Source: Pseudomonadota bacterium
Lineage (GTDB): Bacteria; Pseudomonadota; Gammaproteobacteria; Burkholderiales; Sulfuriferulaceae
Assembly (NCBI GenBank): GCA_021790515.1
Contig: JAJYHV010000026.1
Coordinates: 61,167 to 125,166, forward strand
Length of the DNA: 64,000 nt
Reading direction: 5' to 3'
The translations under genes and the position numbers were made by a program. Positions 15,650 through 35,321 of the stretch are shown piece by piece. Positions within the stretch are counted from its first letter, which is position 1. Each line of letters opens with the position of its first letter. The notes under the pieces were generated by a model. That model was given only the letters and a program-made list of their open reading frames with translations. It had not been told where the DNA came from and made no database searches.

Positions 15650-15783
15650 GGGGAACGGCTGATTTATTCTCACATGCCCGCGACGGAGGAATAAATCGGC
15701 ACTTCCCTGGGAAGCCTGTCGGACTTGATTCGTCCTGCCCTTTGGGTTGCAACGGCATGGCAAATCAAGTCCGACAGGCTCCT
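15650..15783. repeat. Copy A of interspersed repeat family: a short fold-back (15650-15708) joined to an 18-bp perfect inverted repeat AGCCTGTCGGACTTGATT (15713-15730) / AATCAAGTCCGACAGGCT (15763-15780)
   Basis: Sequence inspection; the same termini recur at 32505-32841 and 38581-38744. Confidence 0.85.
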
Positions 15784-32422: not shown

Positions 32423-32504
32423 GTTTTATGCCTCGACGTAAATCGGGATGACATCGAAATGGCATCAATCTGTACAATGAGATACAGGATTCTTGTGGGC
32501 ACGC

Positions 32505-32841
32505 TAGGGAAGCGCTGATTAATTCCCACACGGTCGCGACAGCGGCTTGGCGGGATGAAATGCAAGGCGCAACGCGCAGTCAAGGGTTATTCTCCCTTGG
32601 GTCAGTACCCAAGAAATAATAGCCTTGACAAGCGGCGCAACGCGGCAGTTCGCTCGCCAAGCCCCGTCCCGCCGTGCATGTTTTGCACGTTTTCAACGTG
32701 GCGGTTGCAACCAAATTGCGCGCTCGCTTCGCCGACCTCCCTGGCATCGTAGTCCCGGCTACGACCTTCGTCGTTCGACTCGCGATCATCGCAATTTGGT
32801 CTGCTTTGCTCCTCGTGGAGGAGTTAATCAGCGCTTCCCTA
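32505..32841. mobile_element. Copy B: MITE-like non-autonomous element, 16-bp perfect TIRs GGGAAGCGCTGATTAA / TTAATCAGCGCTTCCC flanked by TA
   Basis: ta-gggaagcgctgattaa ... ttaatcagcgcttccc-ta; internal fold-back sequences; no transposase ORF. Confidence 0.85.
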
Positions 32842-32905
32842 AATCCGGATAGTCGCATTTTTGCGACATGGTTGACAAAAATGGGCGGGTAAGTGCCCTG
32901 GTGCG

Positions 32906-34003
32906 TCAAAGGGACTGCTCGTTATCCAATGGTATGTTCGTGTGTTCGTACCAACCCTTGGTCGCATTGACGACCCTCACCACGAGCAGCATGACAGGCA
33001 CCTCAATCAGGACACCAACCACGGTAGCCAGTGCCGCACCAGAATGAAACCCGAACAGGCTGATGGCGGTGGCCACGGCCAGTTCGAAGAAGTTTGAAGC
33101 ACCAATCAGTGCCGACGGACTGGCGATGTTGTGCTTTTCTCCCAGAGTGCGGTTGAGCCAGTATGCCAGTCCGGCATTGAAAACAACCTGAATGAAAATG
33201 GGCACCGCCAGTAGCAGGATGATGACCGGTTGTTGCAAAATGGCCTCGCCCTGAAAAGCAAACAGCAGCACCAGCGTCGTGAGCAATGCGGCGATTGAAG
33301 CAGGGCCGATTGCATTCAATACATTATCGAGCGCTGGTTGACCTTTTCTCAGCAAAAAATAACGCAAGGATTGAGCCAGAATGACGGGAACGATGATGTA
33401 CACCAACACGGAAACCAGTAAAGTTGCCCACGGAACGCTGATGGTGGATATGCCGAGCAGCAACCCGACCAATGGCGCGAAGGCAAATATCATGATGGTG
33501 TCGTTGAGCGCGACCTGGGACAGGGTGAACAATGGATCGCCATCGGACAGACGGCTCCAGACGAATACCATGGCAGTACAGGGGGCTGCTGCCAGCAGAA
33601 TCAATCCGGCAATATAACTGTCGAGTTGGACTGCGGGCAGATAGGCGGCAAACAGGTGGCGGATGAACAGCCAGCCGAGAAAAGTCATGGAAAAAGGTTT
33701 GACCAGCCAATTGACGAACAGGGTCACGCCAATACCCCGTACATGCTGGCGAACCTCGTGCAAGGCGGAAAAATCGACGCGAATCAGCATCGGGATGATC
33801 ATGACCCAAATGAGCAATCCGACGGGAATGTTCACCTCGGCAATCTGCCAGTTACCGATGGTATGAAAGACGGCCGGGAACCATTTCCCCAGGGTAATGC
33901 CGACAAAAATGCACGATACGACCCATAAGCTCAGATAACGCTCGAACCATGACATGGGCGCGCCGGATATTTTTTTTGCCGTGATTTCGCATTGACCGCT
34001 CAT
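32906..34003 (-). CDS. acr3: Arsenite efflux permease, ACR3 family
   Basis: MSWFERYLSLWVVSCIFVGITLGKWFP, APCTAMVFVWSRLSDGDP, PSALIGASNFFELAVATAISLFG. Confidence 0.93.
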   Translation of the reverse strand: MSGQCEITAKKISGAPMSWFERYLSLWVVSCIFVGITLGKWFPAVFHTIGNWQIAEVNIPVGLLIWVMIIPMLIRVDFSALHEVRQHVRGIGVTLFVNWLVKPFSMTFLGWLFIRHLFAAYLPAVQLDSYIAGLILLAAAPCTAMVFVWSRLSDGDPLFTLSQVALNDTIMIFAFAPLVGLLLGISTISVPWATLLVSVLVYIIVPVILAQSLRYFLLRKGQPALDNVLNAIGPASIAALLTTLVLLFAFQGEAILQQPVIILLLAVPIFIQVVFNAGLAYWLNRTLGEKHNIASPSALIGASNFFELAVATAISLFGFHSGAALATVVGVLIEVPVMLLVVRVVNATKGWYEHTNIPLDNEQSL

Positions 34004-34428
34004 GGCGTAGTCTCCAGTTGTAAAGCATTTTTTACTGCCGAGGTCAGTCGTTGACGGATATCGTCGCGTACTGCAATGAAGCTTTCCAGCGGTTCACCAT
34101 GCGGGTCGTGAAACGGCAGATGAATTTGGGGCACTGGCCGTGGAAATATCGGACAGGTTTCTTTCGCATTGTCACAAACAGTGACGACCAGATCGACGGG
34201 CTCATCCAATAATTGATCGATATCTTTGGGATACAGGCCATCGGTCGGCAAATCGAGCAGTTGTAACGCCTTGATGGCGTTTTCCGCCACTTTGGGTTGC
34301 GGACGGGTGCCGGCAGAAAGCGCGCGTACCTGGCCTGCCAGATCATGATTCAATAGTACTTCGGCCATTTGTGAACGGCAGGAATTGCCCGTGCAGAGCA
34401 CGAGAACGGTTTTGAGCGGAGATGTCAT
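34000..34428 (-). CDS. arsC: Arsenate reductase, LMW-PTP/thioredoxin type
   Basis: VLVLCTGNSCRSQMAEVLLNH, VDLVVTVCDNAKETCPIFP. Confidence 0.93.
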   Translation of the reverse strand: MTSPLKTVLVLCTGNSCRSQMAEVLLNHDLAGQVRALSAGTRPQPKVAENAIKALQLLDLPTDGLYPKDIDQLLDEPVDLVVTVCDNAKETCPIFPRPVPQIHLPFHDPHGEPLESFIAVRDDIRQRLTSAVKNALQLETTP

Positions 34429-35321
34429 GTTGGCTCCTGGATTTCGTGGCGGGGCAGCTTGCCAATGGCAGTGAATTCGTGTTGCAGGGACAATCGATCC
34501 AGTTTGTCGGCGGGCAAATTCAGCAGCAATCCGATGCGTCGTTGCAGCAAGTGGAAAGCTTGCCGCATGGCCTGTTTTTTTTGTTCATCACTGCCGTCGG
34601 CGATAACCGGATCGTCAATACCCCAATGCGCTGTCATGGGTTGCCCCGGCCAGACCGGACATTTCTCACCGGCAGCCTTATCGCAAACAGTAAACACAAA
34701 ATCCATGACGGGTGCGTCAGGGCGCGAAAACTCATCCCAGCTTTTGCTGCGCAGCTTTTCTACCGGAAAATTTTGTTGTTGCAGCAATTCCAGCGCAAAA
34801 GGGTTGACTGCGCCAGACGGATGGCTGCCCGCGCTGAATGCAAGAAAGCGGCCTTTACCCAAGTGATTGAGCAGTGCTTCGGCCAGAATGCTGCGAGCAG
34901 AATTACCGGTACATAAAAACAACACCTGATACACATGCGGTTTCATAATGCTACTCGCCTTCTTTTTCACGGTGGTCGAATTCAGGGGAGTTGGAAATTG
35001 CTCCGGCTGAATACTTGTTCTGGCCGATAAACAGGGCTCACCTTCACAACAATTATTGGTCAAAAAATGCAGCAATTCATTCATCGCATCGTAATCTGCG
35101 ACATAACGGATGTGGCGGCTTTCACGTTCGCCGTGGATTAAACCCGTTCGTTGCAAATGCGCCAGATGAAACGACAGTGTGGCGGGCGCCATCTGCAAAG
35201 CATCACCAATGAAACCGGCGTACAGGCCTTTTTTGCCCGCCTGCACCAACAGACGGAAAATGGCCAGACGTGACTCGTGTCCCAGTGCTGCCAATAAAAC
35301 CGAAGCGTTTAATATTTCCAT
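34425..35321 (-). CDS. Fused ArsR repressor - LMW-PTP-type ArsC arsenate reductase
   Basis: N-terminal wHTH (LAALGHESRLAIFRLLV..MAPATLSFHLAHLQRTGLIHGERESRHIRY) with CCEGEPC, then VLFLCTGNSARSILAEALLNH...VFTVCDKAAGEKCPVWPG in one ORF. Confidence 0.92.
   Translation of the reverse strand: MEILNASVLLAALGHESRLAIFRLLVQAGKKGLYAGFIGDALQMAPATLSFHLAHLQRTGLIHGERESRHIRYVADYDAMNELLHFLTNNCCEGEPCLSARTSIQPEQFPTPLNSTTVKKKASSIMKPHVYQVLFLCTGNSARSILAEALLNHLGKGRFLAFSAGSHPSGAVNPFALELLQQQNFPVEKLRSKSWDEFSRPDAPVMDFVFTVCDKAAGEKCPVWPGQPMTAHWGIDDPVIADGSDEQKKQAMRQAFHLLQRRIGLLLNLPADKLDRLSLQHEFTAIGKLPRHEIQEPT

Follow-up and report, generated by a model that had tools for sequence, protein, structure and literature searches.

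A multicopy MITE with IS5-type termini and a two-armed fold conserved in several bacterial families

Between positions 32505 and 32841 of the window (the whole stretch of 64,000 nucleotides that was analysed), a segment of 337 bp is closed by matching inverted ends, which were confirmed as ta-GGGAAGCGCTGATTAA on the left and TTAATCAGCGCTTCCC-ta on the right. The locus raises the question of what kind of element this is, by what agent it was moved, and what its pronounced internal folding means. The preliminary description took it for a non-autonomous, structured mobile repeat with perfect 16 bp TIRs and a duplicated TA target. The 16 matched base pairs are present, and the boundaries do lie at the TIRs, although each had to be shifted by one base. 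The base preceding GGAAGC is A or G in other copies and changes in step with their 4 bp duplication; the outermost G/C pair therefore belongs to the target duplication, and the TIR proper is 15 bp long. Identical 4-mers around several copies (CTAA at L002, L007 and L023; TTAG at L011; TTAA at L012 and L013) likewise establish the TIR as GGAAGCGCTGATTAA and the duplication as YTAR, in place of the TA that borders most copies. The window copy alone would not prove YTAR, as its duplication is imperfect (CTAG at 32504–32507 and CTAA at 32839–32842, agreeing in three of four bases) and its empty site reads GCAA. The MITE proper occupies 32508–32838 of the + strand (331 bp), with perfect TIRs at 32508–32522 (GGAAGCGCTGATTAA, + strand) and 32824–32838 (TTAATCAGCGCTTCC, − strand).

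The window copy is intergenic, lying between two − strand genes, an acr3-like arsenite transporter gene and a 547-codon ORF. As the preliminary description had noted, the segment carries no transposase: the ORFs within the 331 bp are chance frames, and no IS5-type DDE transposase is encoded there, so that the element is a derivative presumably moved by IS5 and not an IS5 element itself.

If the segment is mobile, related copies and unoccupied target sites should be found, and both were. A blastn search of its own 2.0 Mb assembly, the check first proposed for this locus, returned 55 matching stretches, and the element is thus not single-copy. TIR-like sites with at most three mismatches number 160 in the 2.0 Mb genome, against 9 for a reversed-pattern control. 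Copies were compared from the stretches around the TIR or element sites of the genome, and fall into size forms of about 331, 300, 275, 215, 179, 162, 140, 123 and 45–66 bp, of which the shortest are palindromes comprising hardly more than both ends. A plasmid collection searched with the element gave no match. Several copies (L007, L011, L013, L017, L332, L335, L341 and L348) sit exactly at the TAA or TAG stop codon of a neighbouring ORF, which the YTAR duplication leaves intact; at L007, for example, the upstream ORF has its stop codon within CTAA.

Empty sites were sought in G015, a genome of the same genus that is 92–94% identical around the window locus, and four were found. At the window site, G015 reads GGGCACG-GCAA-ATCCGG where our sequence has GGGCACG-CTAG-element-CTAA-ATCCGG, and the other three sites carry CTAA (L007), TTAA (L010) and TTAC (L012), of which the first two are YTAR. 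The length of the empty site is exact at the window locus, L007 and L010, and a 5 bp deletion lies alongside at L012. The nearest named record, JAJYGL010000149 (L149), belongs to a proteobacterial MAG and is 87% identical to a G015 copy. The element thus combines what is expected of a MITE: it is short and without a transposase, its TIRs are common to autonomous insertion sequences, it occurs in many copies with duplications, and it leaves precise empty sites. That part of the preliminary description which spoke of a non-autonomous, structured mobile repeat is borne out.

The fold-backs reported inside the segment are also real. The + strand of the window copy folds at −165.8 kcal/mol, compared with −116.0 ± 5.5 kcal/mol for shuffled sequences (z −9.1), and the − strand yields a z of −10.5. 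This copy is an enlarged version of a core of about 275 bp. Arm 1, a long imperfect hairpin (GACAGCGGCTTGGCGGG...CTCGCCAAGCCCCGTC), spans approximately 32538–32668 as judged from the fold, and is capped at 32596–32613 by an apical hairpin (CTTGGGT-CAGT-ACCCAAG) that characterizes the 328–331 bp form and is absent from the 275 bp form. A 32 bp hairpin module (GCCGTGCAT...ACGTGGC) found in the 300–331 bp forms follows at 32671–32702, where the 275 bp form has a 4-base loop. Arm 3, a hairpin of ACCAAATTGCGC...GCAATTTGGT with the inner stem CGTAG/CTACG, occupies approximately 32703–32809, again as placed by the fold.

Full-length relatives of 269–275 bp were found in 15 genomes belonging to five families of one order (f1, f15, f16, f36 and f37), and identity falls to 55%. 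An alignment of 24 sequences (A1), from which the fold was itself derived, yields a common structure in which the TIRs pair as a closing stem around two long arms separated by a small hairpin. Of 2277 cells in the 95 pairs of this shared fold, 95.4% hold standard pairs, whereas slid controls are 35.9–42.2% paired. Changes on both sides were seen in 54 of the 95 pairs, against 28.1 ± 2.5 in shuffles and 12–18 in the slid controls; none of 500 shuffles scored as high, but such counts are not probabilities, as related sequences were compared and their own alignment supplied the structure. For the TIR stem, transposase recognition would by itself be expected to produce compensatory changes. In the arms, however, at least two Watson–Crick types occur in 18 of 27 shared pairs of arm 1 (24 sequences) and 18 of 30 of arm 3, together 36 of the 57 pairs predicted on both strands, and the result therefore does not rest on the TIRs. 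Across at least five families, compensatory changes have preserved the fold.

A hairpin of about 60 bp within arm 1 (L011:1556–1615, core positions 53–112) is 80–85% conserved in further families, with matches in G059, G241, G275, G353, G379 and other genomes where the rest of the element is mostly unmatched, and it may be a separate module.

What maintains the pairing is less certain. In pairs predicted on both strands, G–T mismatches number 40 and A–C mismatches 51, and in the union of pairs 88 and 91. As the two kinds are about equally frequent, no transcript strand is favoured and the fold is more likely to be kept at the DNA level. The constraint or process responsible thus probably acts on DNA and not through one defined RNA, and would maintain the fold as a cruciform or a single-strand hairpin formed while the DNA replicates or the element transposes, by correction of one arm against the other, or by both. 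Such correction, through template switching or gene conversion, could by itself produce covariation and preserve pairing that serves no function. The lack of strand preference agrees with this account, as do the near-perfect palindromes of 45–58 bp in the same genome (L207, L249 and L256), which consist of the ends only and indicate that rearrangements between the arms do happen. Correction would be expected to erase internal mismatches, yet these persist in nearly all 24 sequences: columns 58/111, 59/110, 61/107, 62/106 and 70/98 contain only 0–2 Watson–Crick cells each. Stem columns are also better conserved than unpaired ones (0.84 versus 0.73), and the core keeps a constant length of 269–275 bp in five families. 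Fixed mismatches and stem conservation thus tell against pure correction, and strand symmetry and the palindromes tell for it; we regard neutral covariation as quite possible, though short of probable.

A functional RNA would be an obvious alternative for so stable a fold, with transcripts acting as an sRNA, an RNase III substrate or a terminator. Stability on both strands and the strong covariation are compatible with such a role, and in Coxiella the MITEs QMITE1 and QMITE2 give rise to sRNAs (PMC5896051). Selection on one RNA strand should nevertheless favour G–U pairs and not tolerate A–C, at odds with the balance of mismatches given above. Moreover, Rfam returned only sub-threshold matches and none over the gathering score, and the genes flanking the copies occur in every relative orientation (14 tandem, 5 convergent and 5 divergent). 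We therefore consider an RNA function unlikely.

The agent of movement is suggested by the ends. Across GTDB species genomes, at least 117 stretches from several phyla contain the TIR together with a flanking TA. Two of them answer to the full-length insertion sequence with the same TIR that was first recommended as a search target: they are contigs of 1218 bp, from Massilia soli (L109) and Paraburkholderia ribeironis (L080), in which an IS5-family transposase lies between TIRs of the MITE type (NF033581, E 5e-101 and 1.5e-107, respectively; Pfam domains DDE_Tnp_1 and DUF772). YTAR is also the reported target duplication of IS5 (PMC10359306). The MITE accordingly resembles the IS5 family (NF033581, transpos_IS5_4) in its 15 bp TIR, GGAAGCGCTGATTAA or variants, and its 4 bp YTAR duplication. 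It differs in having no transposase gene and a body of 275–331 bp, which bears no recognizable similarity to an IS5 interior beyond the TIR and a few adjacent bases. Of the two affiliations originally offered, IS5 is upheld; the other, an IS630/Tc1-type MITE, draws on the TA flanking most copies but is rejected as extremely improbable, since the duplication, identical around several copies, is 4 bp instead of the 2 bp TA of that group and the TIR matches IS5-family elements.

The parent transposase was predicted to lie elsewhere, and the TIR is indeed found on full-length IS5 elements of other genomes, while the host assembly contains no match to DDE_Tnp_1 or to the L109 transposase. Nor was a transposase of matching TIR type found in the MITE-bearing genomes G015, G002, G005 and G052. 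The absence of an IS5 parent is weak evidence, as assemblies break at repeats; contigs end in repeats, and the insertion sequence may simply be missing from them. Full-length IS5 copies in G001 and G011 were considered as parents and rejected because their TIRs differ (GGATGCTCTGAACAA and GGATACTCTGAACAA). Mobilization in trans is thus proposed by analogy, given that neither the host nor the MITE-bearing sister assemblies hold a transposase with matching TIRs. An IS5-type transposase acting in trans would bind the MITE TIRs and insert the element at YTAR targets, including some TAA or TAG stop codons that the duplication would restore, and this enzyme would now be absent from the host assembly or lost. 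We are confident that the element is an IS5-type MITE, presumably mobilized in trans by an IS5-type transposase, with an old unit of about 275 bp as its body and a conserved fold.

The partner need not have stayed the same. In other hosts the TIRs of the MITE differ, and both ends are changed together. The TIR GGAAGCCCTGAACAA is shared by MITEs L335 and L337 and both ends of a 1166 bp IS5 (L320), and GGAACCACTGATTTA by MITE L332 and the border of an IS5 remnant (L321). This paired exchange, matching IS5 ends, fits repeated capture of the MITE by related IS5 transposases. Other short elements carry the same TIR around unrelated interiors (L057, L061, L063, L072, L120 and L156 among others), including 98–145 bp elements in Nitrosomonas and Nitrotoga and others in Fretibacterium, Treponema and Clostridia.

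Bacterial MITEs are mostly regarded as short-lived decay products of one insertion sequence. The present element contrasts with that picture: its body, constant in length and conserved in fold, recurs in five families with at least four TIR types, and IS5 ends matching two of these types were found elsewhere in that order. Tentatively, and with more doubt than assurance, we suggest that selection maintains the two-armed fold as a functional component of the transposon, a strand-neutral DNA device through which the element has survived in several families while its IS5 partners were changed by swapping both TIRs together. Were the fold selected, the structure of a non-autonomous element, beyond its ends, would be under selection.

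As an IS5-type MITE the element is soundly assigned to a known kind, and what exceeds the routine is its two-armed fold, conserved in several families, together with the exchange of TIR types. A literature search for the TIR sequence and for such MITEs in related bacteria found nothing, and no description of the element turned up in Rfam or in the papers covered. The Correia/NEMIS-type elements of Neisseria are similar as small, intergenic, TA-flanked hairpins of high copy number, but have another TIR, measure 100–150 bp and form a single simple hairpin, and they are known to be processed by RNase III. QMITE1 and QMITE2 of Coxiella burnetii, with about 50 copies of 150–400 bp, are also comparable, but their duplications are variable (2–3 or 7–11 bp) and, unlike the present case, no cross-family conserved fold is reported for these sRNA-producing elements in the abstract of PMC5896051.

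The TIRs also appear to serve as targets themselves. At seven contig ends (G000:C75, C67, C62, C37, C36, C22 and C6; L265–L271) the same 116 bp abut one and the same base of the MITE TIR, TTAATCAGCGCTT|ATATGGACGCCTCCCG, and the element to which they belong is itself unassembled. Sequences related to these 116 bp form the ends of IS110/IS1111-type elements in L277 and L275, downstream of a DEDD transposase (NF033542, E 6e-94 in L277), the position of the guide RNA region in IS1111-type elements (PMC11187229). Judging from the shared junction and these relatives, the most likely reading is that an IS1111-type element selected this one TIR base on at least seven occasions, which would constitute a second layer of parasitism stacked on the MITE TIRs. 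Parallels are IS4321 and IS5075, which insert in Tn21 TIRs (as cited in PMC11187229), and IS1111, of which QMITE2 is a target (PMC5896051).

Two minor observations concern the window. Arsenic genes, named by inspection only, adjoin the MITE at 32906–35321 and comprise the acr3-like transporter, an arsenate reductase-like ORF and a 298-amino-acid ORF in which an ArsR-like domain is fused to a second reductase-like domain. A degenerate relative of 55 bp, with the imperfect TIRs GGAACGGCTGATTTA and GGAAGTGCCGATTTA, lies at 15652–15706.
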